Assembly: GCF_003952225.1 (NCBI RefSeq) | Contig: NZ_CP034437.1 | Location: forward strand, 2,848,501 to 2,912,500 | DNA: 64,000 bases | DNA from: Paenibacillus albus | GTDB lineage: Bacteria; Bacillota; Bacilli; Paenibacillales; Paenibacillaceae | Direction of reading: 5' to 3' | Shown: positions 18,114 to 28,657 of the stretch, piece after piece | Layout of the letters: every line of letters begins with the position of its first letter | Numbering within the stretch: position 1 is the first letter of the stretch | The notes under the pieces: generated by a model | Database searches by the model: none | Seen by the model: the letters and a program-made list of their open reading frames with translations, nothing else | What the model was told of the DNA's origin: nothing | Program-made: the position numbers and the translations under genes

Positions 18114-19253
18114 TCACGCTAAGGGAGACTGGTCATCTCCGATTTCAGGTAGTGGTTGTGAATTTCTTTCGCGAATGGCTTCTTCTGTTCGTGGGACCAG
18201 AAACTCTACGCCAAACTTTGCCGCGCTCGCTTGCACTTCTTCGATGAAAGGACGGAAACTCTTATTGTATTCTTGGAACGCAAGTTCAAAATCGCCGTGG
18301 CATTTGTGGAAAGCATCAGCCAAGGCGGCTGCCCCATCTATTGCCAGCGATCCACCCATGCCAGCAGCCGGAGAGGCGCAGTATCCAGCATCACCAACCA
18401 GCGCTACCCTGCCTTTAGTCCACGATGGCATTTTCATTTGGCACAGCTTGTCAAAGTAAAAGGTTTTCGAGTTCTGCACTTCTTCCAACAATTCCGGCGT
18501 TCGCCAGCCTAGTCCAGCAACCTGATTCAAAATTATGTTCCGCTGCTGTTCTTCGTTTCGGTAGTCGTAAGGAATTTCTGTCTCCGAGTAGAAGCAGAGG
18601 ACAATATCCGTTTTATTGTTGTAGGCGTTTAGAAAGACCGCCTTGCCCGGTTCATTGTACATCTGTGTCGTATTCTCCCGGATCAACAACTTATCCACGA
18701 TCGTGATAGAGAAGTAAGTTTTAAGGAAATGCGAAAACTCCGTTTCCTCACCGAACCAATGTTTTCTGACGGCCGAATGAATGCCATCGCAGCCAAATAC
18801 CAGGTCAAACGAGCGCGTTTGACCTCCTTTGAAAACGACGTCTACAGCGTTACTTTCTTCCGTTAACGATACGATACAATCGCCGAAAATAATCTCGACA
18901 TCGTCTTTGACAGCCTCGAACATGATATTCAATAATACATTTCGCTCAATTTCGTATTCATCTTCTGCTTGCTCCTCACTTTCATTTTGAATGTAGTCCG
19001 ATCTTAAAGTGACATCATCGGAATTTTTGAATTCCATCACTTCCATGGTTATTCGGTTCGATTCGATTTGGTCGAACAGCCCCATGCGTTTCACGATGCC
19101 GATCGTATTTCCGCGAATATTTACTGGTGTGCCGCCTCTTTTGAGACCGTCTGCAATTTCTACAATCGTCACGTTATAACCCAACTTCTTCATCCAGTAG
19201 GCTGTTGAGAGACCGGCGAAGCTCGCTCCGCTAATGAGTATGTTTTTTGTCAT
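18114..19253 (-). CDS. FAD-dependent monooxygenase (aromatic-ring hydroxylase type)
   Basis: A 379-residue group A flavoprotein monooxygenase. The FAD dinucleotide fold begins at the N-terminus (ILISGASFAGLSTAYWMKKLGYNVTIVE). The DG motif is VFGCDGIHSAVR and the GD motif is ALVGDAGYCASPAAGMGGSLAIDGA. Relatives hydroxylate small aromatic or antibiotic substrates (PHBH and TetX-like proteins); the substrate here is unknown. The ATG at 19253 has AGGAGG 7 bases upstream. It stands alone on the minus strand, downstream of the CD3324-family gene but separated by a strong terminator. Confidence 0.88.
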   Translation of the reverse strand: MTKNILISGASFAGLSTAYWMKKLGYNVTIVEIADGLKRGGTPVNIRGNTIGIVKRMGLFDQIESNRITMEVMEFKNSDDVTLRSDYIQNESEEQAEDEYEIERNVLLNIMFEAVKDDVEIIFGDCIVSLTEESNAVDVVFKGGQTRSFDLVFGCDGIHSAVRKHWFGEETEFSHFLKTYFSITIVDKLLIRENTTQMYNEPGKAVFLNAYNNKTDIVLCFYSETEIPYDYRNEEQQRNIILNQVAGLGWRTPELLEEVQNSKTFYFDKLCQMKMPSWTKGRVALVGDAGYCASPAAGMGGSLAIDGAAALADAFHKCHGDFELAFQEYNKSFRPFIEEVQASAAKFGVEFLVPRTEEAIRERNSQPLPEIGDDQSPLA

Positions 19254-19339
19254 ATTCGTTCCTCCTGTGTTGGTCGTATTCGTGTTTCGTGTTCGTTGTA
19301 TAGAATAAAATAGCTTTATGAACTGAATATAAACATAAA

Positions 19340-19388
19340 AAGAGCCTTCCAGCTTAAAGCCATGCGGCTTTGGTCTGGAGGGCTCTTC
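19340..19388 (-). terminator. Terminator after the CD3324-family gene
   Basis: The long stem AGAGCCTTCCAG/CTGGAGGGCTCT encloses a second small stem (AAAGCC/GGCTTT). On the minus strand it is followed by TTTTTATGTTT. Confidence 0.8.
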
Positions 19389-19395
19389 TCTATTG

Positions 19396-19716
19396 TCATA
19401 TACGTGCCTGTGCAGCATCGTATTCGCTTTGTACCTTTATCGCACTTGCGCTTCGCGTCTTCATAATGATCTTCCGGATGCTTTCACTGGACAAATGATA
19501 TTGCCGCTCAAGCTCCTGCACGGAGCTTCCAGTCACATAGTGCTGAAAGATCTCATCATTCCGCCGCTTGATCATAATGCGGGATCCACTCTTCTCTCCC
19601 CATGCGGCACGTTCGTTGTGCGGCTTCGGGATATACAGCAGCTCCCCTTGGATGTAGCTTTGGAGCTCTTTCAGCAGATTAGGGGGAAGCACATCTTTTC
19701 CATTTTTGTAGTTCAA
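19396..19716 (-). CDS. CD3324-family (Mor-like HTH) DNA-binding protein; att-site target
   Basis: A 106-residue protein. MNYKNGKDVLPPNLLKELQ and the YIQGELLYIPKPH segment are typical of the CD3324 family. A C-terminal helix-turn-helix follows (IFQHYVTGSSVQELERQYHLSSESIRKIIMK), suggesting a small transcription regulator. The start codon is TTG at 19716 with GGAGG 6 bases upstream. Start codon and ribosome binding site lie inside a 21-bp repeat also found at 28515-28535, which I read as the attachment site of the adjacent element. The coding frame is intact, but its upstream leader is element-derived. Family assignment is from motif memory. Confidence 0.75.
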   Translation of the reverse strand: MNYKNGKDVLPPNLLKELQSYIQGELLYIPKPHNERAAWGEKSGSRIMIKRRNDEIFQHYVTGSSVQELERQYHLSSESIRKIIMKTRSASAIKVQSEYDAAQARI

Positions 19717-19727
19717 GGTATACCTCC
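19707..19727. repeat. Left attachment-site core (attL-like)
   Basis: A 21-bp segment (begins TGTAGTTCAAGGTATACC, ends CTCC) repeated in the same orientation at 28515-28535 with one mismatch. It covers the Shine-Dalgarno and start codon of the CD3324-family gene. The integrase gene lies 729 bp inside. Confidence 0.65.
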
Positions 19728-19735
19728 GTTGGAGG
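19723..19735 (-). promoter_or_regulatory. Shine-Dalgarno-sequestering hairpin of the CD3324-family gene
   Basis: In the minus-strand transcript CCUCC-AAC-GGAGG forms a 5-bp GC-rich stem (6 with a G-U pair). It pairs the ribosome binding site with an anti-Shine-Dalgarno just outside the att core. The equivalent position beside the right repeat has no CCTCC, so this occlusion comes from the element. Confidence 0.5.
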
Positions 19736-19751
19736 CTGAAATTCCTTGCTA

Positions 19752-19826
19752 TTACTGGGCCTCAGCCTCAATTTTGTTTGCTTGACCTATAACTTGACCA
19801 ATGAAAATAATTTGACCTTTGTTCAA
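19752..19826 (-). CDS. Putative 24-residue upstream ORF in the element-derived leader
   Basis: TTG at 19826 has AGGAG 10 bases upstream and encodes a peptide starting NKGQIIFIGQVIGQANK, ending EAEAQ before a TAA. A GTG at 19835 would add three residues but lies one base from the ribosome binding site. Three GGTCAA repeats in this stretch encode its Gly-Gln pairs. It ends 36 bp before the CD3324-family start, just upstream of the hairpin, so ribosome movement could alter the structure. Translation is unproven. Confidence 0.35.
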   Translation of the reverse strand: MNKGQIIFIGQVIGQANKIEAEAQ

Positions 19827-19928
19827 TTCAATCACGCTCCTTTCACTTCTTACCTTTCATGATACGAAGATTTACAGAAACTGTCTATGGAATCTTCGAT
19901 TATAACGGACTTTTCCCTTGCGTTGCGC

Positions 19929-19959
19929 AAAAAGAGCGCCCACTTAAATGGACGCCCTC
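19929..19959 (-). terminator. Probable terminator for the small membrane protein gene
   Basis: An imperfect hairpin pairs GAGGGCG and GCGCTC arms on the minus strand and is followed by TTTTTG. Mismatches make it only moderately convincing. Confidence 0.45.
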
Positions 19960-19995
19960 GGGTTTTAACGGTGTTAATGGTCGGCGGGCACTGTT

Positions 19996-20376
19996 TCAGG
20001 CGGCGCTTGTAATTTTGGAATCAGGCGAGGCATTTTTGCGCTTGCCTTCTTTGGCCGCCTCCATCATGAGAAATACGACGGCCAGAACGTTGATGATAAA
20101 GCCAGCGGCCGGAATCACCCAAACAACCGACGCGATAATGCCCATAATATGCCCGAGCTTCTTGCCGCCCGCCTTGATTGCGAATACGAGGCCGACAACG
20201 TGAACCGAGGCAAATAGCGCTGTCAAGATCGAGAACGTAACGAGAGGGCCGTTTGCTATGCTACCCGTCTCCATGCCTGCGTAGATTGCCAAGAATCCAA
20301 TCAATGAGAATAAAGAGCCAATCGTGGCATTTAGGCTGCCTGTTATCCATTTGTAGATCATGCTTGTTGTTTTCAT
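19996..20376 (-). CDS. Small four-helix membrane protein in the element
   Basis: A 126-residue protein with about four hydrophobic segments: GSLFSLIGFLAIYAGM, LVTFSILTALFASVHVVGLVFAI, IMGIIASVVWVIPAAG and IINVLAVVFLMM. It has a Lys-rich cytoplasmic tail. The layout recalls DUF4064-type proteins, but I am unsure. The ATG at 20376 has AAGGAG 8 bases upstream; a GTG at 20382 is only 2 bases away. It lies between attL and the integrase, a usual place for accessory 'moron' genes. The role is unknown. Confidence 0.65.
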   Translation of the reverse strand: MKTTSMIYKWITGSLNATIGSLFSLIGFLAIYAGMETGSIANGPLVTFSILTALFASVHVVGLVFAIKAGGKKLGHIMGIIASVVWVIPAAGFIINVLAVVFLMMEAAKEGKRKNASPDSKITSAA

Positions 20377-20455
20377 TGTCACTTCTCCTTTGTGTGTGTT
20401 TTGGCCGCCGTAGCGGCCTCGTGTTGGTTTTTAAAGAGAACATGCGTGGTTTGGT

Positions 20456-21583
20456 TTACAGATTGAGTTTATAACGCTCTTCCATCTTGTCGGCAAGCGT
20501 GCGCTGGCTGGACGGCAGAGCGTGCGCATATACACCCATGGTGATGGACGGCGAGCTATGGCCCGCCCGCTGGCTCACGACCGCGACCGCTTCGCCGGAG
20601 AGTAGGAGATCGGTTAAATGACTGTGCCGCATGGCGTGCATGACGATGAGCGGTAGTCCAGCGGCCTCGACGTCCCGCACGAACGTATTGCGGGCGCTGG
20701 CATTGTGCATGATCTTGCCGCGCTCTGTGGCGACCACCAGCCCGAGCGGGTTAGGCTTCTGCTTGAGCTTGTAGCGCTTGAGGTAACGGGCCAGCGTCTC
20801 GGACATGGTGACGGCGCGGTTCTTGCCCGTCTTCGTTTCCTCTTGGAGAAAGATCGTGTTTTCGGTGCGAGCCGTTGTCTTGCTCACGGTTATGGTCTGC
20901 TCGTCAAAGTTGACGTCGTCCCATGTCAAGCTCGTGACTTCACCAAAGCGCAGGCCCGTGAGAAGGGCGATCATATAGAGCGGGTGGAGGCGGCTGTCTT
21001 TGCTGGATTCAAGAAAGTGAAGGAATTGCTCCGCGCTCCAAATGGCTCTTGGCTTCGGCTTATAGCTCGGCTTCTTGACTTTGTCACAGGGATTGCTGGG
21101 CCGCATCTCGAAGTCAACGGCTTGCTTCATACACTTGCTGAGAAACATGCCGACGCCGCGCACGGTGCCAGCGCCTAGCGGTGCTCTGCCTTTCTCTTCG
21201 TCGCCTTCGAGCAAATCGTTGTAAAAGTTGTTTATGTCCTTCGGCGTGATCTTCTGGACTTTCATGCCGCCGATATGCTCCACAATGTACTTCAAGAATC
21301 CGCGCTGTCTGAGAAGCGTGCCTGACTTTAAGTTATGCTTGAATGTCTTCTCAAGGCATTCCGTGCAGAACTCGGCCAGCGTATCCTTGCGCACCTCTGC
21401 AACAGCTAGGCCGCGTGCAAGGTCGGTCTGGAAGGCCGCCGCATGCTTCTGTGCTTCTTTCTTAGTCGCAAAGCCTCGGCGCGTCGTGTGCTTCTGCTTG
21501 CCGTTTGCGTCGGTGCCCGTCACTAGCTTATAGAGCCACATCTTGCCTTCTTTCTTCGTGTCGTATTGCTGGAATGATGCCAT
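20456..21583 (-). CDS. int: Tyrosine-type site-specific integrase
   Basis: A 375-residue phage-type recombinase. An N-terminal arm-binding domain (MWLYKLVTGTDANGKQKHT, FATKKEAQKHA) and a core-binding SAM-like domain precede the catalytic domain. The catalytic residues are R212 (LTGLRFGE), a Lys near 251-254, H316 and R319 (HAMRHSHLT), H342 (AGHSSPSIT) and the nucleophile Y352 (VYAHAL). The ATG follows GGGGAGGA. It is nearest to the left repeat and should catalyse integration there, with the AlpA-like protein directing excision. Confidence 0.95.
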   Translation of the reverse strand: MASFQQYDTKKEGKMWLYKLVTGTDANGKQKHTTRRGFATKKEAQKHAAAFQTDLARGLAVAEVRKDTLAEFCTECLEKTFKHNLKSGTLLRQRGFLKYIVEHIGGMKVQKITPKDINNFYNDLLEGDEEKGRAPLGAGTVRGVGMFLSKCMKQAVDFEMRPSNPCDKVKKPSYKPKPRAIWSAEQFLHFLESSKDSRLHPLYMIALLTGLRFGEVTSLTWDDVNFDEQTITVSKTTARTENTIFLQEETKTGKNRAVTMSETLARYLKRYKLKQKPNPLGLVVATERGKIMHNASARNTFVRDVEAAGLPLIVMHAMRHSHLTDLLLSGEAVAVVSQRAGHSSPSITMGVYAHALPSSQRTLADKMEERYKLNL

Positions 21584-21662
21584 TACTTTGTTCCTCCCCG
21601 TTGTCTATGTAGGCTTTTCTACCGCCTTAAGGAGCGCTGTTAGGCGCTCCGCATGTTCATGG

Positions 21663-21914
21663 CTATTCTGACGTCTTACTGTATTGTGTAACTGCAATCC
21701 ATTTTTTCGATTTACTTGCCCGAATTGTAACTTCCTTACCCGTTTGGCTGGCCTGCAAGATCGCAATAGCTAACTTTACGGCGTCTTCTGCGCTTACCTT
21801 AAATCCGACTGAATCGGAATCTTCTTTTGTATTTGGGTATACCGTGAGCGCTTCGGCGTATCGGTCTTCGTTATAAAGATCGACTATTTGCGCATGATGA
21901 ATTGTCTTTCCCAT
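21663..21914 (-). CDS. Small hypothetical protein of the element
   Basis: I do not recognise this 83-residue protein. It has no membrane segment. The middle SAEDAVKLAIAILQAS is helical and is followed by a basic strand-rich end (KEVTIRASKSKKWIAVTQYS), perhaps a nucleic-acid-binding face. The ATG follows GGGGGAAG at a normal distance. It lies just upstream of int in the same orientation and could be a regulator or part of the int transcript. Confidence 0.55.
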   Translation of the reverse strand: MGKTIHHAQIVDLYNEDRYAEALTVYPNTKEDSDSVGFKVSAEDAVKLAIAILQASQTGKEVTIRASKSKKWIAVTQYSKTSE

Positions 21915-22014
21915 AATGTAACTTCCCCCTAGTTAAGTGCGGTGTGTTCTTGCTATATATCCATTGTAAGAAAGGAAATGGGGGGCTGTCATTGGTCAAA
22001 ATATGGGTCGGAAA

Positions 22015-22062
22015 TTAAAAAAGGAGCCAAGAACCCAGCAATAACACGGGATTCTGGCTCTT
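22015..22062 (-). terminator. Terminator after the TerS-like gene
   Basis: Arms GAGCCAAGAACCC (22024-22036) and GGGATTCTGGCTC (22048-22060) pair well. On the minus strand the hairpin is followed by CTTTTTTAATTT. Confidence 0.75.
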
Positions 22063-22082
22063 ATTTTGATGTTTATAGTCAA

Positions 22083-22610
22083 CTACAAAGTAGGAATTTC
22101 AAGGTGAGACTTGTCGAAAACGGGCTTGGCGTGCGAGCGTATATACAACTGTTCGAGAAGTTCGGCGCATTCGGGGTCGTCCATCAAACGTTGCTCGATT
22201 GCGGCCACTTGTTCCTCTTCGACTTGCCATTGAACCTCGGTGCTCGTAACGTTCGCGTCAACCTGTGTCCGTTTGCCCCATTTGAAAGGGTGGCGGCGTT
22301 CCAGATACCACGCGGCGGCCTGCCATTGGGTTTTCCCAGCATGCCGGATAACGCCCAACGCGTTCTGCTCGGCCTCGGCGGTTGCCCGTTCAACGGCGGC
22401 ATGGAAGGCCATGTAAAGCTCGTCCTCGCCGCGAGCGCCTGCTTTTAGCCACTTGTACACGGTATTCCGATCAACGCCGCACAAGGCCGCCGCTGGCTCG
22501 ATGTAGTGGCCCTCACGCAGAAGCTTGCACATCTTGGCTTGCACATCCACATTAAGCTCGTTCTTGTACAGCTTCGGCGGCCGTCCGCGTCGTTTTGGTT
22601 GCTCTGACAT
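22083..22610 (-). CDS. Small terminase subunit-like HTH protein
   Basis: A 175-residue protein. It begins with an AT-hook-like RRGRPPKL and an HTH (MCKLLREGHYIEPAAALCGVDRNTVYKWL). It continues with an EQNALGVIRHAGKTQWQAAAWYLERRHPFKWGK stretch typical of phage small-terminase-like proteins, then an acidic tail. TerS recognises DNA for packaging; in phage satellites a private TerS redirects the helper phage's large terminase to satellite DNA. No large terminase is present here. It could instead be another DNA-binding regulator. Confidence 0.7.
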   Translation of the reverse strand: MSEQPKRRGRPPKLYKNELNVDVQAKMCKLLREGHYIEPAAALCGVDRNTVYKWLKAGARGEDELYMAFHAAVERATAEAEQNALGVIRHAGKTQWQAAAWYLERRHPFKWGKRTQVDANVTSTEVQWQVEEEQVAAIEQRLMDDPECAELLEQLYIRSHAKPVFDKSHLEIPTL

Positions 22611-22691
22611 AGTCGATTCCTCCTTTCACAAAAAATGAATGCGCTTTTAGTATGATGCGAAACGATCGCTTGTTACTCGCATTTTCCCGTT

Positions 22692-22960
22692 GCTACTGCT
22701 CTACCGCTCTAAACGTCCAGCAGTAGCGTAGAGCGGTACGAGCCTTAGAGCCGCAAGGGTTTGAGCCTACTGCTCTACTGCAGTAGCCATATAGAGTAAA
22801 TAAGTAAAAAACGTGTTTTTTATTTATATATATATATATTTATTAAATATTATCTTTGGCTCGTACAGCAGTAGAGCAGTAGCGAAAAAGCCAGGCGTAC
22901 CAAGGCTTCGTACCGCTCTAGGTATCAAAAGAGCGGTAAACAGCAGTAGAGCAGTAGCGA
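22692..22960. other. Iteron-flanked AT-rich segment, probable replication origin
   Basis: The 375-bp gap between the TerS-like and primase-like genes has no ORF. The 20-bp unit CAGCAGTAGAGCAGTAGCGA occurs exactly at 22866-22885 and 22941-22960. Related inverted or variant copies are at 22692-22711, 22718-22738 and 22767-22786. A second motif, TACCGCTCT/AGAGCGGTA, occurs at 22702, 22730, 22911 and 22930. Between the two iteron groups is an A/T tract (22800-22855) with alternating TA, suited to duplex opening. The neighbouring DUF3987 gene makes a satellite origin likely. Confidence 0.7.
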
Positions 22961-22985
22961 GTAAAGAAAAAAAGCGCCGGAGGAA

Positions 22986-24527
22986 TCACCATCCTCTAGC
23001 GCTCGCCATTTCTTCATACACTTCGCCTGTGTCCTGCTCGATTTGTTGGTCAAAGAGCATAAATCCCTCTCGCATACGCTTTCTGTCCTTAAAGGGGATT
23101 TTCACATACATGCCCCAGCCTTCCGCGATCAGTTCGCCCAGTACGGGCATAACTTTCTTCTTCGGCACGTTCAAGGCGTCGTACAAATCTTTAATCGCCA
23201 TTGTCGTACCCTTGGCACTGCCGTTTGCACTAATGGTCTCTTGTCCTTCTGTGCCGCGATCTCGAATGTGGAGCATGGCCTTCTTCTTTACCGCGTCGTC
23301 GTCGCTGACACGCACCGCTTTATGCACAAACTCCGCATGGCTCTTGAAATATTGCACAAGATGGAGCGCCATATTCATTGTCTCCGCATCCAGCGTGTCC
23401 TCTTGAACGGCTTCACCGCTGTACAGCCGGATATAATGCAGAATAAGCGCCAGCCGTCCAGTGTAGCCGATAAGCTTGCCGTACACGCCGCGCATAAACG
23501 CGGGCACATCTGGCTCTTGCATCAAGGAAAGGAGATTACCTTCGTAGTAATTGAAAATCATAGCTGCTTCGCGATTTAGTTTAATAATCTTCGCCAGCGG
23601 CTTGCCGTTCTCGTCTTTGCCTTCAAAATTCATCTTGTACATAGATTCGAATAGGTGCGAATAGTACGACTTGGCTTCCGGCGTTACAACTGGCGTATCA
23701 TCGACTTGAACCATTTCTGCTTTTGGTTCCCTCGGATATAGGAGAAGAAAACGGTCGATTTCGCCATCTAACGGCCTGTTTTTGTAGCGTTCAGTCAACT
23801 TGTCCGGCGTAATGTTGCCGATTAGCGTTAGAAAGCACTCTTTGCGTCGAGTTCGCTTGTCCTTGCGTCCTCTTGGTTGCAGAACGCCGCTGTGCGCGGA
23901 CATGTAGAATTGAGCATCGCCGCCTTTACCGCCTTTGTATTGCCCTTGTGAATCGAATAAACTGGTTAACTCGTCGTGGACGCCTATTACGCCGCGCGGG
24001 TTCTCGATAAAAATGTCATAAAGCGCTTCGGTAGTAATGTCGCTGACTTCTAAAATCGTTTCTGTCGGCGCGACTGGCTCTTCTGCGGCCACGGGCTTCG
24101 GTTCCTTCTTCGGGTTACGCTTGTTCCATTCAAGCGCTTCCTCGCGCTCTTTCATCTGGATGCTGTACGCTTTCAGCTTATCTTGATAAACGCGCTCGTT
24201 GTACTCGTCGGTGCTCCATACTGGTTTCATCGTGAATTTCATAAGTGGCGTTTTCTTCGTCGAAGGTGGTGCCACGATACCTATGAACAAGTTCGCTTGC
24301 TCCTGCCAATCTTGACGGAGTTCAAGTTTACGGGTAGCCCCGATGCCAATGCTACAAGAAGCCAAAGCGCCTGCAAGAACGTAGTCTGGTGGACACCGTA
24401 ACGCCTTCGATACAGTTGCAACGAATTTCGCCAACTTCTTCGGCATGGCGGTGATAGGTAACGGCATTCGTTCGGCGGTATACAATATGTCGTCTTCAGT
24501 TAACTTGATTGGTGGTATACTACTCAT
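22986..24527 (-). CDS. DUF3987 family primase/helicase-like replication protein
   Basis: A 513-residue protein of the phage/plasmid DUF3987 family. A modified Walker A is at residues 83-94 (GIVAPPSTKKTP) and an acidic Walker-B-like segment is in GVIGVHDELTSLF. GNITPDKLTERYKNRPLDGEIDRFLLLYP follows and a C-terminal winged-helix region ends the protein. Such proteins act at phage or satellite origins as helicase/primase-type replicators. A long charged linker (KKEPKPVAAEEP) splits the ATPase. The start codon has only weak AGGTAA upstream. The iteron region lies directly beyond its 3' end. Confidence 0.82.
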   Translation of the reverse strand: MSSIPPIKLTEDDILYTAERMPLPITAMPKKLAKFVATVSKALRCPPDYVLAGALASCSIGIGATRKLELRQDWQEQANLFIGIVAPPSTKKTPLMKFTMKPVWSTDEYNERVYQDKLKAYSIQMKEREEALEWNKRNPKKEPKPVAAEEPVAPTETILEVSDITTEALYDIFIENPRGVIGVHDELTSLFDSQGQYKGGKGGDAQFYMSAHSGVLQPRGRKDKRTRRKECFLTLIGNITPDKLTERYKNRPLDGEIDRFLLLYPREPKAEMVQVDDTPVVTPEAKSYYSHLFESMYKMNFEGKDENGKPLAKIIKLNREAAMIFNYYEGNLLSLMQEPDVPAFMRGVYGKLIGYTGRLALILHYIRLYSGEAVQEDTLDAETMNMALHLVQYFKSHAEFVHKAVRVSDDDAVKKKAMLHIRDRGTEGQETISANGSAKGTTMAIKDLYDALNVPKKKVMPVLGELIAEGWGMYVKIPFKDRKRMREGFMLFDQQIEQDTGEVYEEMASARGW

Positions 24528-24656
24528 AAGCGGCTGTTACCTTGGGAGAGAGGTTTGGCGGCTTTTTTGTTGTGCACATAAACATTGTCCAAGATCATCC
24601 TTACTTCGAGTTATTTTGCAACGTTTGCCACCTCTCTTTTTGTCCCTCCGGGTTTC

Positions 24657-24869
24657 CTACGCTTCCTTCCGATTATCCCGAAATGTTTCGAGCCAAGCGT
24701 AATAGTCCGCTTTCGTGACGCGCCTTGCCGCGCCGATCTTATATGTCGGCAATTGGCCGGAAGTCATAAACTCGTACACGGTGCGCCGAGTCAGGTGCAA
24801 ATGCTCGGAGATCATTTCGGCTGTGAGAAAATCACAATCCTCGATATTTCGCTTCACCTTATTTCCCAT
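24657..24869 (-). CDS. AlpA/excisionase-type HTH protein
   Basis: A 70-residue DNA-binding protein of the helix-turn-helix 17/MerR-like type: LTAEMISEHLHLTRRTVYEFMTSGQLPTYKIGAARRVTKADYYAWLE. Such proteins act as excisionases or activators of integrase in satellites and prophages. GAAAGGA stands upstream of the ATG. It is the first gene of the leftward replication block, with a candidate promoter at 24946-24974. Confidence 0.82.
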   Translation of the reverse strand: MGNKVKRNIEDCDFLTAEMISEHLHLTRRTVYEFMTSGQLPTYKIGAARRVTKADYYAWLETFRDNRKEA

Positions 24870-24902
24870 AGTCTCAAATCCTTTCTCTTAAGATCATTAA
24901 CA

Positions 24903-24916
24903 GGACACAGTGTACC
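24903..24916. promoter_or_regulatory. Near-palindromic operator candidate
   Basis: GGACACAGTGTACC matches its reverse complement at 12 of 14 positions. It lies between the candidate -10 and the start of the AlpA/Xis-like gene, where a repressor could act. Confidence 0.3.
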
Positions 24917-24945
24917 CAGAAAAACAGACTCTTGTATAATGAAAC

Positions 24946-24974
24946 ATTTTATGATATAGAGACAGAAGTGATAA
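24946..24974 (-). promoter_or_regulatory. Candidate leftward promoter for xis-primase block
   Basis: On the minus strand TTATCA, a 17-bp spacer and TAAAAT. The -35 matches 4 of 6 and the -10 matches 5 of 6. Confidence 0.4.
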
Positions 24975-25017
24975 AAAATATTTTTTGAGGCATATAGAAT
25001 GATAATTAATTTTTATA

Positions 25018-25029
25018 TTGACTGTGACA
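25018..25029 (+). repeat. 12-bp repeat shared with 26123-26134
   Basis: TTGACTGTGACA occurs here and again at 26123-26134, both in intergenic regions of the element and both followed by A-rich sequence. It is a candidate binding site for an element-encoded regulator. Confidence 0.35.
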
Positions 25030-25197
25030 TAGTACAAAAAGTGTGGTGACGGCATGGATAAACCCGATATTTAACTACCCAATGAAAAGGTTGGCAAAGC
25101 AATTCAAACAGCGATACAAAAAACTGAGTTAAGTTAGAAAAAGTTCCACTAAACCGTCTTGGGTTGGTTTTTACTTGCTCGTTCTCACCAGATACAT

Positions 25198-25229
25198 GAA
25201 AAACTCCGTCCTGAGTGACAGGACGGAGT
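25198..25229 (-). terminator. Terminator after the 25237 gene
   Basis: A perfect 10-bp stem ACTCCGTCCT/AGGACGGAGT with a 7-nt loop. On the minus strand it is followed by TTTTTCATG. Confidence 0.85.
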
Positions 25230-25236
25230 GCGAAGA

Positions 25237-25791
25237 TTAATTCATTGATTGAGTTACTGATGTGTTTGTCGGTGGTTTTTCTGGTGCGTGATCGGTAACG
25301 TTTTTTACATATGCTCCTATTACAGCGCCAATTAAGACGGACAACAAAATCTTAGCGACATCCCACCAAAAGGCTTTTCGTCGGCTCCAAGCAGCCTCTT
25401 TCATAATCAGCAACTTCACTTCGATTGTAGCTATAAGGTCGTCAATTTCATCCTGTACATATTCTTCAAAATTATGTTCACCGATGTTGTACACGTTTAT
25501 TTTCTTGAGATACTCTTTAAGCTTTTCGTACTCTTTAGGTACGAAATCCAGAATCATCCCATTTACTAATTCTATTTTCTTAAATTTCATGTTCGTATCC
25601 GAGAGTTGATCTAATAACTGAGTAAGTTCTTTTTTTAGATCGGTAGTTAAGGCACTGAAACAACCTGTAACAGCAAAGGAGCTTCGTGCAACTCCACGCC
25701 CATTTAGTTCTGCAAGTGTATTTCTTGGAGCGCTTTGTGATCTACGCGAAATAGTCGAAAGTGATTTTTTTATCAATAAATGAAATTTCAT
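25237..25791 (-). CDS. Hypothetical C-terminally membrane-anchored protein of the element
   Basis: I do not recognise this 184-residue protein. A basic Ser/Arg-rich N-terminus (LIKKSLSTISRRSQS) is followed by a helical, charged middle (ELTQLLDQLSD, PKEYEKLKEYLKKI, EEYVQDEIDDLIATIEVKLLI). One membrane segment near the end (AKILLSVLIGAVIGAYV) precedes a short Pro/Thr tail. The form suggests a tail-anchored membrane protein, as in some phage-exclusion or signalling proteins; the function is not inferable. GGGGGG precedes the ATG. It has its own terminator and stands alone, like many accessory genes. Confidence 0.6.
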   Translation of the reverse strand: MKFHLLIKKSLSTISRRSQSAPRNTLAELNGRGVARSSFAVTGCFSALTTDLKKELTQLLDQLSDTNMKFKKIELVNGMILDFVPKEYEKLKEYLKKINVYNIGEHNFEEYVQDEIDDLIATIEVKLLIMKEAAWSRRKAFWWDVAKILLSVLIGAVIGAYVKNVTDHAPEKPPTNTSVTQSMN

Positions 25792-25867
25792 GGAATCCCC
25801 CCAGGAATTTCAATTCGATACTTGGTGGAGAAATCCCTTTACACGAAGAGATGCTTACGTATATAAG

Positions 25868-26017
25868 TTATTCAAACTTCTCGCCGCGAGCTTGAGCCTT
25901 GCCTCGTTCCAGTCCGGAGCGATATATCTCGGGATTGCTGTATAAAAGCTTTGTCATTTCCGTAAGCGAAAGAATGATGGTCGCTTTCGGCAAGTGTAAT
26001 TCAATCCAGATGGCCAT
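25868..26017 (-). CDS. Small hypothetical protein (49 aa) of the element
   Basis: It starts MAIWIELHLPKATIILSLTE and ends with a basic RGKAQARGEKFE tail. AGAAGG stands before the ATG at 26017. The upstream part of the longer frame (to 26095) lacks a ribosome binding site. Unknown function; it is the last leftward gene before the divergent capsid unit. Confidence 0.5.
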   Translation of the reverse strand: MAIWIELHLPKATIILSLTEMTKLLYSNPEIYRSGLERGKAQARGEKFE

Positions 26018-26085
26018 TATAAAACCTTCTTTCACGGGTAAAATAGGGGTACTCCTAGTGATATTGAATTTCAAGAACATGCGTA

Positions 26086-26118
26086 GAAGGGGCACCGATT
26101 TGCGGCGGTGTCTCTTTT
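26086..26118 (+). terminator. Terminator-like hairpin in the divergent region
   Basis: GGGGCACCG pairs with CGGTGTCTC (one G-U), followed by TTTTATTTTT. Confidence 0.5.
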
Positions 26119-26220
26119 ATTTTTGACTGTGACAGGGCAAAATAAGCCCAAGCCATTTCCTCTTGCCAAGGGCTGGCCTCCTGATTTCGAAACATACTCA
26201 GCAATGTCATAGTCAGTGCA

Positions 26221-26257
26221 AGAAGGGCGCTCACTCACCCGAGGCGCTCTTTTTGTT
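26221..26257 (+). terminator. Terminator-like hairpin in capsid leader
   Basis: AGAAGGGCGC pairs with GCGCTCTTTTT through GC and A-T pairs, then TTTTGTTTTG. It lies 163 bp before the capsid ATG and may gate transcription into it. Confidence 0.6.
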
Positions 26258-26419
26258 TTGTCTAAATATGACCATACTAGAAATGTACAAGCCGAGGCTT
26301 TGCGCACTCATTCATAGAGCCGTTATAGAGGCATTCACTTGTACCGACAGGTTTTAGGCACTCATACCCCCCGTGAGCCGCCATTAGTCGCACCCTATAA
26401 CAAGGAGTGCGAAAGCACC

Positions 26420-27472
26420 ATGACAATTTCAAACGAACAATATCAAGATATTCTTAACGGTTTTAAGAGCATTAATGGCATCGTTGAGGTGCAAAACGCT
26501 CGCATGAAGGACTTCGAGACGAAAGCAGGCCGTCCGGCGTTGTACGGCGCTAGCTCTTCGGAATCCATCGGCGCTCAATTCGTGAAGTCTGACGCGTTTA
26601 AGCGCTATGTCCAATCGGGGCAAAGTGTCTCTGACCTCGTGAACATGAGCCGCAAAGACCTTTTAAGCTCGCTGAGTTCGCGCACGGGCTACCAACCGGA
26701 TATTGTGAGCACGGCAGGCGGTATGCCGCTGACAATCCGTGACCTGATTCCTAGCCGTCCCGTTGACGCGGGTTCGGTAACGTACATGGTTCACACGGCT
26801 ACGACGAACAACGCCGCTTTCGTGCCGGAGAAGGCGCTTAAGCCGGAAAGCACCATGACGCTCGAAGAGAAAACCGCGCAAGTGCTGACGCTGGCCCACT
26901 GGGTAACAGTATCGAACCAAGCGCTGGCCGATCTGAACGGCGTTCAAGCCCTGATCGACAACGAGCTTGTCGCTGGCCTGCGAGGCGTGGAAGAACTCGC
27001 GCTCTTGTTCGGTTCCGGCACAACGGGCAATCTGCAAGGCATCATGAACGCGGGCATTGAAGAAGGCGAAGTGACGACGGGCGCAACAATTGACCGTATT
27101 CGCCGCGCTATTACGCAAGTAGCCATGAACGGCGGCAACCCAAACGGCATCGTCCTCCACCCGTATACGTGGGAAGAGATCGAGCTATCGAAAGACCTTG
27201 AAGGCCGCTATCTCATGATTGAGGCTTCGACAGGGGCGACACAGCGCTTGTTCCGCGTTCCCGTTGTCGTAACGCCTGCTATGACAGAGCCAAGTTTCCT
27301 CGTTGGTGATTTTGGCGGCGCGACGATCTTCGACCGCGAGCAAATCGGCATTCAAGTGTCGGAGCACCACCAAGACTACTTTACGAAGAACTTGCGGGCC
27401 ATTCGGGCCGAGAGCCGCTTGGCCTTCGCTGTACGCCGTCCGAACGTGTTCGTCAAAGGTACAACGATTTAA
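26420..27472 (+). CDS. HK97-fold phage major capsid protein (lone capsid gene)
   Basis: A 350-residue protein of the HK97 gp5 family. A short helical delta-like N-terminus (about 60 residues) is followed by TAGGMPLTIRDLIPSRPVDAGSVTYMVH, FVPEKALKPESTMTLEE, LAHWVTVSNQALAD, a VEELALLFGSGTTGNLQGIM segment and VVVTPAMTEPSFLVGDF, all usual for this fold. The ATG at 26420 has AAGGAG upstream. No prohead protease, portal or large terminase lies beside it, which is abnormal for a prophage structural module. In a satellite, a private capsid protein might remodel helper-phage heads; that is inference. Confidence 0.88.
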   Translation: MTISNEQYQDILNGFKSINGIVEVQNARMKDFETKAGRPALYGASSSESIGAQFVKSDAFKRYVQSGQSVSDLVNMSRKDLLSSLSSRTGYQPDIVSTAGGMPLTIRDLIPSRPVDAGSVTYMVHTATTNNAAFVPEKALKPESTMTLEEKTAQVLTLAHWVTVSNQALADLNGVQALIDNELVAGLRGVEELALLFGSGTTGNLQGIMNAGIEEGEVTTGATIDRIRRAITQVAMNGGNPNGIVLHPYTWEEIELSKDLEGRYLMIEASTGATQRLFRVPVVVTPAMTEPSFLVGDFGGATIFDREQIGIQVSEHHQDYFTKNLRAIRAESRLAFAVRRPNVFVKGTTI

Positions 27473-27478
27473 GGCATT

Positions 27479-27498
27479 GAAGCCCCTACGGGGGCTTC
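27479..27498 (+). terminator. Hairpin between capsid gene and next ORF
   Basis: A perfect 8-bp stem GAAGCCCC-TACG-GGGGCTTC, followed by only two T residues. It may be an mRNA stabiliser or weak terminator. Confidence 0.45.
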
Positions 27499-27521
27499 TT
27501 GACGTTTAAGGGAGTGAGTTT

Positions 27522-27791
27522 ATGTTGAGTGAAATGTTGAAATCGCACATGAAAGAGATGAAGACCGTAAATGCGGAGCTTTATTATTCCATCATGGACG
27601 GCATTATTGACCGTGTCATAGAGATACACGGGCTTAAGTATGAGCCGGAGGCCGGACACTTTACGAGGCCGGAAAATGGCGGTTTTGTCCCGCTGACGAC
27701 GGTGGAGTTCAATAATCTCGTCGAGGCTGAGTTGTGGCGCATTTTCCCGCAGGAGAGCGCGGGCGTTCGCGTGGTGCGGTTCGTGGATTAA
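27522..27791 (+). CDS. Hypothetical protein downstream of the capsid gene
   Basis: An unrecognised 89-residue soluble protein. A helical N-terminus (EMLKSHMKEMKTVNAELYYSIMDGIIDRVIEIHG) precedes a small mixed region ending SAGVRVVRFVD. AAGGGAGTGAG precedes the ATG. It is probably cotranscribed with the capsid gene. Head-decoration, connector or scaffold roles are possible from position only. Confidence 0.6.
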   Translation: MLSEMLKSHMKEMKTVNAELYYSIMDGIIDRVIEIHGLKYEPEAGHFTRPENGGFVPLTTVEFNNLVEAELWRIFPQESAGVRVVRFVD

Positions 27792-27843
27792 AACAAAAAA
27801 GCCCCCGCAGATGAGGTGACGGGAACTTAATTGACGCCCGCGA

Positions 27844-28107
27844 ATGCGAATAAGTGGACGATGTTTAGAGTTTTACAGGATGGACGACGACCCCATTCCA
27901 TTTCCTATTTTCCCCGAGAATAACGATGGCAATTCGTGCAAGGTTAAAGCTGTATGCCTATTAATTGGGGGCGATCTTGTGAAGGTGACAGACGAACAGG
28001 TTCGGAAACTGGGTAAGCTCATTCGGAAAGACCCTGAGACGGCCGCTAGGGCACTTGTAAGGCTTTCGAACGAGCTGGGCTTGTACAACCCACGCCGCGA
28101 GGTGTAA
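27844..28107 (+). CDS. Small hypothetical protein of the element
   Basis: An 87-residue frame with no recognised domain. The second half KVTDEQVRKLGKLIRKDPETAARALVRLSNELGLYN is strongly helical and basic. The start is uncertain: ATG 27844 and ATG 27880 lack good ribosome binding sites, while GTG 27979 has GGGGGC nearby and would give 42 residues covering just the helical part. The same frame continues past its stop for 37 codons and again for 38, so it may be the remains of a longer gene. Confidence 0.45.
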   Translation: MRISGRCLEFYRMDDDPIPFPIFPENNDGNSCKVKAVCLLIGGDLVKVTDEQVRKLGKLIRKDPETAARALVRLSNELGLYNPRREV

Positions 28108-28459
28108 ACGCAGAAAAAACCCCGTACGACCTCAACGCGAGAGGGCTGGGAGCTTTCTTGGAAAGAGATAGCCGTAACCGCCGAAGCGGTCTTGTTCACA
28201 GTGAACGTAAACGGGGGCTGAGTCCTATTTACGGTTCTTATAGCGTTGCCTACTGGCCGCGTTTTAGTCACGGTCGTGCGCTCGGGCGGTGGTGCCGCAG
28301 AACGGGCGGGTGGTCGGGCGGGTACTTATTATGCTTGATGCCTGACGACCATTTCGTGACCAATTTTATGACCTAGTAATGTGTTCATACGAGGTATATT
28401 GGAGTGCATGATAGCACAGTTATTTGAGTGGTAGAATTATGAGGCATATAGCATAAATA
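28108..28459. other. Right end of the element without clear genes
   Basis: No ORF with a ribosome binding site is visible. It contains a hairpin ACCGC-CGAA-GCGGT (28177-28190), a palindrome (28194-28206) and two stop-delimited stretches in the frame of the preceding gene. It is probably degenerate phage sequence. Confidence 0.5.
28194..28206. promoter_or_regulatory. 13-bp palindrome GTTCACAGTGAAC
   Basis: A perfect inverted repeat of 6 bp around one base. It is a dyad typical of small repressor operators, in the non-coding right end of the element. Confidence 0.3.
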
Positions 28460-28582
28460 CTAGGTTTTTAACGAGGTTTTGTTGGAGGTGCGAGCGAGGG
28501 TGATTTTGGTGGAATGTAGTTCAAGGTAAACCTCCTTGTTCATATCGCCTGCTGCAACATCATCGAAAGTCGAGATTACCAT
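28460..28582 (-). CDS. Small ORF spanning the right att repeat
   Basis: ATG at 28582 has GAGGAGG upstream at ideal spacing and encodes 40 residues starting MVISTFDDVAAGDMNKEVY. Its frame crosses the attR-like repeat, so its last part is element sequence. In the rebuilt empty site its first 22 residues would join a short end (LQKWKRCASP) and overlap the TTG start of the CD3324-family gene. It would then be an upstream ORF of that gene. No known family. Confidence 0.45.
   Translation of the reverse strand: MVISTFDDVAAGDMNKEVYLELHSTKITLARTSNKTSLKT
28515..28535. repeat. Right attachment-site core (attR-like)
   Basis: It matches 19707-19727 at 20 of 21 positions, differing only at an A/T in the middle. 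On the minus strand it reads GGAGG then TTTACC then TTGAACTAC, keeping the ribosome binding site and start codon of the target gene. Confidence 0.65.
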
Positions 28583-28621
28583 GTCGTACACCTCCTCTAA
28601 TTGAGATAAAAATAGAAAAAA

Positions 28622-28645
28622 CACGATCACACTGGCGAAATCGTG
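28622..28645 (-). terminator. T-tailed hairpin (attenuator-like) in the stranded leader
   Basis: On the minus strand CACGAT pairs with ATCGTG and is followed by TTTTTTCTATTTTT. It lies immediately after the candidate promoter and before the 40-residue ORF, so it may attenuate that transcript. Confidence 0.5.
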
Positions 28646-28657
28646 CTTCATGCTTAC

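Follow-up and report, generated by a model that had tools for sequence, protein, structure and literature searches.

A compact integrated element in Paenibacillus albus with a lone HK97-type capsid gene, probably a helper-dependent phage satellite

Lone capsid genes are a common component of the phage-inducible chromosomal islands (PICIs) of Gram-negative bacteria: 21 of 29 reference islands carry one, and it is reported, in the accessible part of the source, not to be needed for transfer (PMC10111431). Of two islands that encode a capsid homologue, as far as the available text describes them, PmCI172 forms small heads, and the DNA of EcCICFT073 is packaged at the size used by the phage (PMC6092414). 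In SaPIbov5, the homologue is Ccm, a protein of 355 aa whose delta-domain is given in the available excerpt as residues 1-87, compared with 1-128 in the phi12 capsid protein of its helper (PMC8569155). Ccm is described, in the accessible portions of three papers, as the sole satellite protein in small heads, occupying the pentamers while the helper protein forms the hexamers, and as producing no shells alone (PMC8569155, PMC5052747, PMC6893505). Here, we describe an 8.8-kb element with a single HK97-type capsid gene at positions 19707-28535 of a 64,000-nucleotide stretch of the Paenibacillus albus chromosome (NZ_CP034437.1, positions 2,848,501 to 2,912,500; hereafter, the window). The element is integrated, and its ends are precise.

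In our assessment, this element is probably an integrated helper-dependent phage satellite, a reading that includes a part in packaging and, less surely, a part in resizing the helper's heads. Its nature as a satellite is well supported by what can be read in the DNA, and the packaging and head-resizing roles are ones that we infer. An earlier note on the same stretch had described near-identical 21-bp repeats bounding 8.8 kb, together with an integrase, an AlpA/Xis-like helix-turn-helix (HTH) protein, a DUF3987 replicator, an iteron-flanked AT tract, a protein resembling a small terminase subunit (TerS) and one HK97-type capsid protein. All of these stood: every gene was matched by Pfam or PHROG models, and the repeats and the tract were borne out by comparison with relatives and with shuffled sequence. 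The features that carry the reading are listed below in window coordinates.

19396-19716, minus strand: target gene, CD3324-family (Mor-like) protein (NF040785, 112 bits, cut-off 65; PF08765, 8.8e-09)
19707-19727: attachment repeat, integrase end; minus-strand reading GGAGGTATACC-TTG-AACTACA, the ribosome-binding site (RBS) and start codon of the target gene; A at the variable position
20456-21583, minus strand: tyrosine integrase (PF00589, 4.7e-25; Arm-DNA-bind_4; Phage_int_SAM_3; phrog_1, 1.1e-69)
22083-22610, minus strand: TerS (phrog_4102, 1.7e-32)
22694-22956: putative replication origin immediately 3' of the replicator gene, with an AT tract (22785-22863) between two groups of four iterons
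22986-24527, minus strand: DUF3987 replication protein, primase/helicase-type (PF13148, 2.1e-55; phrog_2373, 5.6e-37)
24657-24869, minus strand: AlpA/excisionase-type HTH protein (HTH_17; PF12728, 7.6e-08; TIGR01764, 30.4 bits, cut-off 28.8; phrog_66, 8.9e-08)
26420-27472, plus strand: major capsid protein, HK97 gp5 type, 350 aa (PF05065, 2.7e-48; TIGR01554, 149.8 bits, cut-off 27.5)
28515-28535: attachment repeat, capsid end; T at the variable position, as in all 13 related single-copy sites

The two direct repeats are 21 bp long, identical at 20 of 21 positions and spaced 8,808 bp apart. On the minus strand, they read GGAGGT(A/T)TACCTTGAACTACA, which constitutes the RBS, the TTG start and the first codons of the gene at 19396-19716; therefore, the integrase targets the start of the CD3324 gene, and the incoming end supplies a near copy of its RBS and start. 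The coding sequence is preserved, and the insertion displaced the normal upstream DNA. With the element removed in a script, the joined flanks aligned unbroken to two loci of the same genus, L006 (1,365 bp, 91.6%) and L007 (1,370 bp, 82.8%), and across the junction to 12 further loci at 68-77% (30 loci compared; the junction alignment covered 13 relatives). A pattern search for the 21-bp site in 22 genomes of the genus, allowing one mismatch at most, found two copies in the element's own genome, one in 13 others and none detectable in 8. The variable position is T in all 13 single-copy relatives, whereas the element's own genome has T at the capsid end and A at the integrase end. On this comparison, the single mismatch is distributed as integration predicts, with the host base in one copy and the element base in the other; such a pattern is as expected if strand exchange fell in the 14 bases 3' of the variable position and the A was derived from the element.

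The replicator gene is followed by an origin-like region whose anatomy, judged from the sequence, equals that given for PICI origins in the part of the source available, where an AT-rich stretch on the 3' side of rep lies between two sets of iterons (PMC6092414). Eight of the nine GTAGAGCRGTA sites in the 64-kb window (one mismatch at most) fall within 22694-22956. The tract between the iteron sets is 85% AT and includes the most AT-rich 60 bp of the window. Moreover, positions 22640-22985 contain 50 identical 10-mer pairs; 500 dinucleotide shuffles averaged 0.55 such pairs and never exceeded 6.

Next to this region lies the gene assigned to TerS because of its match to phrog_4102 and because its homologues stand beside genes for the large terminase subunit (TerL) and the portal. 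In Methanobacterium virus PhiF3, a homologue directly precedes the annotated TerL and portal genes, and in the IMG/VR contigs L035, L045 and L046, homologues precede TerL/portal-like open reading frames (ORFs) named by eye.

The capsid gene is the remaining pillar of the reading. HK97 is a very well understood capsid system; its gp5 has 385 aa, and the solved mature chains have 282 residues, which gives a delta-domain of 103 residues. The structural search proposed in the earlier note was made with an AlphaFold model of the window capsid (mean pLDDT, or predicted local distance difference test, 80.3; 40-sequence alignment), and it placed the predicted fold closest to the D3, phiXacJX1 and HK97 heads in the PDB, at 41, 36 and 38% identity; ranks 1-34 are all of HK97-type fold, at 30-41% identity. 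The lysine at HK97 position 103 is nearly invariant among homologues and is kept in the window capsid, as are the equivalents of K169, N356 and E363, the HK97 cross-link residues. The gene looks intact by its sequence.

What sets this protein apart is its N-terminal region, the scaffolding delta-domain. It has 79 residues up to the HK97 K103 column (83 in a larger alignment), compared with delta-domains of 103-152 residues in 13 phage or prophage homologues (HK97 and 12 related records, two of which, L090 and L098, nearly duplicate each other), and the predicted layout is a delta-domain of about residues 1-79 followed by a mature part of about 80-350. Counted instead to the LTIRDL anchor, 103 residues precede it in the window capsid, 131-185 in all 13 annotated proteins and 131-433 in 75 uncut IMG/VR homologues; the latter lengths are upper limits, the longest possible start codons having been used, and the set is what remained of 80 examined proteins after four cut by contig ends and one broken gene were dropped. 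The broken gene is that of L154, whose short delta region reflected a frame break within a decayed prophage. The capsid frame is open upstream to TTG 26339, which has a plausible Shine-Dalgarno sequence (AGAGG) 7 bases before it and would add 27 residues, bringing the count before the anchor to 130, barely below 131. In the model of the long form, the first 31 residues are low-confidence coil and the first helix begins at residue 32. ATG 26420, which has AAGGAG 12 bases before it, is the better start. By these alignments, the delta-domain is shortened relative to homologues. Delta-domain length is said to correlate with head size, in the part of the source available (PMC5052747).

Purpose-built hidden Markov models (HMMs; six frames, E<=1e-3) found no portal, TerL, protease or tape-measure gene in the element. 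The models were built from prophages and detected portal, TerL and protease in five of five control prophages and tape measure in four of five, the miss being control L199, which is truncated by the end of its contig. The controls are partly non-independent, their portals being 100, 97, 82, 64 and 60% identical to a training protein; the models also detected two phage fragments, at 37% and about 22% identity. A second TerL model (TerL2, from four contigs) gave no match in any target; being without a positive control, it has no evidential value. PHROG scans of the leftover ORFs returned nothing recognisable and no connectors, and no lysis genes turned up in general PHROG and Pfam scans, no search having been aimed at them. 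By HMM, Pfam and PHROG, with partly close controls, the element thus lacks genes for an autonomous virion, as the earlier note had held for portal, protease, large terminase, tail and lysis.

If the element is a satellite, its parts suggest how it would work. The AlpA-type protein would trigger or direct excision, the DUF3987 protein and the iteron origin would copy the circle into concatemers, and TerS would direct the helper's large terminase to satellite DNA, with the helper supplying tail, portal, protease and lysis. Less surely, the capsid protein, with its short delta-domain and otherwise complete mature fold, may co-assemble with the helper's capsid protein (in the pentamers, on the Ccm precedent), and this mixed assembly could be biased to small heads that favour the 8.8-kb genome and exclude that of the helper. 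A resizing of helper heads is suggested because the short delta-domain resembles that of Ccm (87 residues, compared with 128 in Ccm's helper). The HK97 genome is 39.7 kb, and its head has T=7 (T, triangulation number); if head content scales as T^1.5, a T=4 head would hold about 17 kb and a T=3 head about 11 kb, and 8.8 kb would fit as one copy at T=3 or two at T=4. The earlier idea of a satellite that replicates itself and diverts packaging stands in so far as the parts fit; replication and TerS-directed packaging are what we infer from homology and anatomy.

The remaining genes and signals of the element are the following.

19996-20382, minus strand: small hydrophobic, probably membrane protein and possible accessory gene, between the integrase and the attachment site (ORF with only weak PHROG matches; hydrophobicity by eye)
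21663-21914, minus strand: 83-aa protein, without match in Pfam, PHROG and other model scans
25229-25203, minus strand: terminator-like hairpin, 11 pairs, after the 184-aa gene
25237-25791, minus strand: 184-aa protein, hydrophobic towards its C-terminus as judged by eye; SLATT hint (NF033634, 0.0025), under the cut-off
26083-26120, plus strand: terminator-like hairpin upstream of the capsid gene
27522-27791, plus strand: 89-aa protein downstream of the capsid gene, without match
27844-28107, plus strand: 87-aa protein, without match

Transcription on the minus strand runs through the AlpA-type HTH, DUF3987, the origin region, TerS, the 83-aa protein, the integrase and the small hydrophobic protein, and the 184-aa gene, also on the minus strand, separates this block from the capsid gene and two small genes on the plus strand. 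The hairpin at 26083-26120 would insulate the capsid gene as a unit of its own. Terminator-like sites number 12 in the region, against a shuffle mean of 11.6, a count not above chance, and neither promoter-like nor terminator-like sites clearly exceed those of shuffles. A 32-bp, 75%-identical sequence with a common TTGACTGTGACA occurs at 25010-25041 and 26115-26146, upstream of both divergent gene blocks; it is a possible common operator, and alone it is not above chance. A 12-bp sequence that precedes both alpA and the capsid gene was by estimate no better than chance and was not used. No Rfam RNA was found at gathering score, and PADLOC matches were rejected as defence systems, being weak HTH or methyltransferase similarities.

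In the surroundings, a short overlapping ORF begins in the displaced CD3324 leader (28536-28651, minus strand); it is likewise present in the close relatives L006 and L007, and integration splits it from the gene. A lower-GC gene for an FAD-dependent monooxygenase (18114-19418) adjoins the target gene; its nearest models, an FAD-binding domain and a tetracycline destructase, both lie far under their cut-offs. On the left flank, similarity to L006 breaks off close to the CD3324 gene and resumes past the monooxygenase gene, so this region may be another insertion. Elsewhere in the window, two spore-germination proteins pass their cut-offs, so the host is probably an endospore-forming member of the Bacillota.

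Other compact elements share the pattern of a lone capsid gene. Among 13 loci at which the capsid context was read (a subset of weak capsid matches), three have a lone capsid gene (L078, L079 and L082), and the other ten (L080, L081, L083-L085 and L198-L202, several from one genome) belong, as judged by eye, to head modules in which portal, protease and TerL genes accompany the capsid gene. L078 (1504-10609; G001, same genus) is bounded by 44-bp exact repeats 9,062 bp apart and encodes an integrase, DnaD/DnaC-like loaders and an HTH-capsid gene pair; it also encodes a Nudix-like protein, under cut-offs, and a protein whose resemblance to phage transcription activators is weak (phrog_248, 0.00085). 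L079 (1-8825; G244, same family) is an 8,825-bp contig with an HTH protein, a lone capsid gene and no integrase recognised; because of its 95-bp terminal repeat, it is probably an 8,730-bp circle, and it could be an extrachromosomal or excised satellite. In L082 (2802-11007; G488, same class), 27-bp exact repeats 8,179 bp apart enclose an integrase, a prim-pol, a DUF5906/D5-type helicase and a single ORF that fuses a ClpP-type prohead protease to the capsid protein. The HMMs found no portal, TerL or tape measure in these three elements, and a protease only in L082. Their capsid proteins form a separate subfamily, 61% identical between L078 and L079, 43-46% between either and L082, and 24-27% to the window capsid.

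Capsid genes of this kind also occur in 16 Clostridioides difficile plasmid records: ten measure 5.8-8.3 kb, five that carry the gene twice measure 15.7-16.1 kb, and one measures 150 kb. Two of these plasmids (L179 and L180; 7.9 and 8.3 kb) and an IMG/VR contig of about 7.3 kb (L183) carry one capsid gene each, L183 also a protease gene, and the HMMs found no portal, TerL or tape measure in any of them. Particle-protected extrachromosomal non-phage elements matching C. difficile plasmid families have been described, in the available part of the source, but without capsid genes (PMC10993401), which is a hint only. That L078/L079-type capsids are confined to small elements (five of five IMG/VR matches lie on contigs of at most 8.1 kb) was considered and rejected, since L181 and L185 carry a portal and are ordinary phage pieces. 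We propose tentatively, and with more doubt than confidence, that very small capsid-swapping satellites form a recurrent, convergent class in Bacillota, of 8-9 kb, with unrelated replicators, a single capsid gene and mixed, undersized helper heads. Its members would be the window element, L078 (9.1 kb), the L079 circle, L082 (8.2 kb) and possibly the pCD630-type plasmids. If such a class exists, its genomes would be roughly half as large as a typical 15-kb PICI and matched to undersized heads, and they may be under-counted because they fall between the definitions of PICIs and capsid-forming PICIs.

Searches for closer kin of the window element were less productive. No relative with close similarity appeared among viral contigs (capsid and DUF3987 queries) or genome contigs (capsid and TerS alignment), and phage and plasmid searches with TerS and the capsid gave only matches below 60% identity, including all 978 matching phage records for the capsid; two Microcystis phages are among its first 30 matches. 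At E<=1e-3, the capsid had matches in 10 genomes of the family (394 sampled) and in 6 of the class (348 sampled), its own included in each case, with the others at 25-34% and 23-29% identity, respectively. In the annotated neighbourhoods opened around capsid matches, a portal or protease gene adjoined, or a gene was named only coat protein; L086, which carries no annotation, was left out. In L062 and L063, small phage records of faecal origin that have a gene like DUF3987, inspection of the ORFs by eye revealed no recognisable capsid gene. Thus, the search of other genomes that the earlier note advised yielded none with the same gene set, and instead the three compact lone-capsid elements described above.

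Several points weigh against the satellite reading. Its support comes from sequence, from which excision, replication, packaging and mobility are all deduced. The family genomes yielded no relative that shares the gene set: TerS occurs in 3 genomes out of 388 and DUF3987 in 3 out of 382, the element's own genome included. No HK97-type helper is visible in the sequence of the element's own genome, because it holds neither a PF04860 portal nor a PF03354 TerL, the portal and TerL families searched, and its one PF05065 capsid is that of the element. Further, the best-ranked phage capsid matches come mostly from Proteobacteria phages (Marinomonas phage P12026, 38.8%), and Pfam, PHROG and curated models recognised no repressor of Stl type among the genes that they identified, with several matchless ORFs leaving a novel repressor possible. 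As for head resizing, the delta-domain value depends on the alignment (79 or 83) and on the choice of start codon, TTG 26339 being possible; the lone capsids of L078 and L079 have no short delta region (114 and 112), so shortening is no rule of the type; and the capsid gene lies on the strand opposite to the rest. Deletion of the capsid gene of EcCICFT073 did not relieve helper interference, according to the accessible text (PMC6092414).

The chief competitor is a satellite that carries its capsid gene as cargo, that is, a captured late gene dispensable for transfer and without effect on head size, with concatemers packaged in normal helper heads. Such an arrangement would agree with the dispensability reported, in the available excerpt, for the capsid genes of Gram-negative PICIs (21 of 29; PMC10111431) and with the packaging of EcCICFT073 DNA at phage size, as far as that source is available (PMC6092414). 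The place of the gene, on the opposite strand and away from the integrase-replicator block, fits as well. We nevertheless judge it rather unlikely: the frame, the predicted mature fold, the cleavage lysine and three cross-link residues are kept though no close relative was found, and the specific change falls in the domain thought to set head size. Retention of all the HK97-type cross-link residues and the HK97-type fold at 30-41% identity across PDB ranks 1-34 might instead point to a satellite whose shell consists entirely of its own capsid protein, with no more than portal, protease and tail taken from the helper. This is very unlikely, given that the element has no portal or protease of its own, unlike capsid-forming PICIs as described in the available text (PMC10690885), and that the short delta-domain and the reported inability of Ccm to form shells alone favour mixed shells (PMC5052747, PMC8569155; accessible parts).

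Decay can leave an integrase and a few phage genes, and the failure to find the same gene set in any relative would suit a remnant of a once complete prophage that had lost most of its late genes. That history is quite improbable, in agreement with the earlier note's view of random decay: the ends are exact, all identified genes are open and the origin is intact. Six-frame HMM searches turned up no fragments of portal, TerL, protease or tape-measure genes, and PHROG recognised nothing in the leftover ORFs. Nor is there head-module synteny, since TerS stands between the origin and the integrase on one strand and the capsid gene on the other, and the pattern is repeated in other compact elements. 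The searches made returned no relative in which the locus is part of a full prophage, and an empty-site homologue matching the 21-bp join is present in the 13 genomes of the genus with one copy, so neither outcome that the earlier note named as refuting a satellite was obtained. Least probable of all, and by our estimate hardly to be expected, is that the capsid protein has been domesticated into an encapsulin-like compartment or acts as a decoy to poison the heads of a helper, and that the integrative element is itself unpackaged. The capsid does score 76.4 bits against the family-3 encapsulin model NF041188, but this is far under the curated cut-off of 180, whereas the phage capsid model passes (149.8 against 27.5); a delta-domain-like N-terminal helix is kept in the predicted structure, and a TerS gene makes little sense without packaging.

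The helper-dependent satellite reading is therefore the one that we compare with known systems, beginning with the Gram-negative PICIs. EcCICFT073 and PmCI172 resemble the element in having, by the available descriptions, an integrase, an AlpA-type regulator, a replicator with an iteron/AT origin at its 3' side and an attachment site of their own, often with a lone capsid gene and sometimes TerS (PMC6092414, PMC10111431). They differ in that theirs are unidirectional with int first, whereas the element runs alpA-rep-origin-terS-int on the minus strand with int last and the capsid gene diverging on the plus strand; in addition, its replicator is of DUF3987 type, its host is probably a Gram-positive endospore former and it measures 8.8 kb rather than 10-20 kb. 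Phage-inducible chromosomal minimalist islands (PICMIs) of Vibrionaceae, as described in the accessible text, share the integrase, the HTH_17-type AlpA (PF12728/PF05930), a DUF3987/DUF5906 primase and very small size (PMC10803314). They are described as sitting at fis and having no capsid remodelling genes, whereas the element carries TerS and a capsid gene at the CD3324 start. Capsid-forming PICIs and the Mulch/Flayer satellites likewise encode a capsid protein and TerS, but theirs belong to a head module that includes portal and TerL in the part of the source available (PMC10690885), neither of which was detected in the element. The pCD630-type plasmids of C. difficile are small replicons with one phage capsid gene, and pCD630 itself (7,881 bp) also has a helicase gene; unlike the element, they have no integrase annotated in two maps, carry the other capsid subfamily (like L078/L079) and are described, in the available text, as plasmids (PMC6807378).

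In its capsid protein, the element comes closest to SaPIbov5. Both encode a single HK97-fold capsid homologue with a shortened delta-domain (355 aa and residues 1-87 in Ccm; 350 aa and a predicted 1-79 or so here), and as in a Ccm-type redirector, a short delta-domain goes with the lack of portal and protease, the shortness here being relative to homologues and dependent on the start codon. The element departs from that model in that Ccm is 19-23% identical to its helper's capsid, by the papers' figure, whereas the element capsid is HK97 gp5-like, and in that SaPIbov5 uses a cos site and the element carries TerS. A lone capsid gene, which the earlier note put in its heading, is no anomaly for a satellite, given how common such genes are in Gram-negative PICIs and that Ccm of SaPIbov5 is a size switch in the accessible accounts (PMC10111431, PMC5052747, PMC8569155). 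The earlier note had set the element beside Gram-positive PICIs. Its origin is of PICI type, and no Stl-type repressor was recognised among its matched genes; on sequence, the content (integrase, AlpA-type HTH, DUF3987, iteron origin and capsid) is closer to Gram-negative PICIs and PICMIs than to the textbook Gram-positive PICI. The arrangement, as read here, matches no satellite family compared, failing the Gram-negative PICI order, the PICMI site and host, and the capsid-forming PICI head module. We found no description of such an element in Paenibacillus in the open-licence literature, nor of one that joins a DUF3987 replicator and an origin of PICI type to TerS and a short-delta capsid protein of HK97 gp5 type. 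The capsid keeps the HK97 cleavage lysine and cross-link residues and is thus a ready test case for the proposed relation of delta length to head size, as set out in the available part of its source (PMC5052747). If the satellite reading is correct, the lone-capsid strategy known from Gram-negative PICIs and SaPIbov5 extends into another bacterial group.

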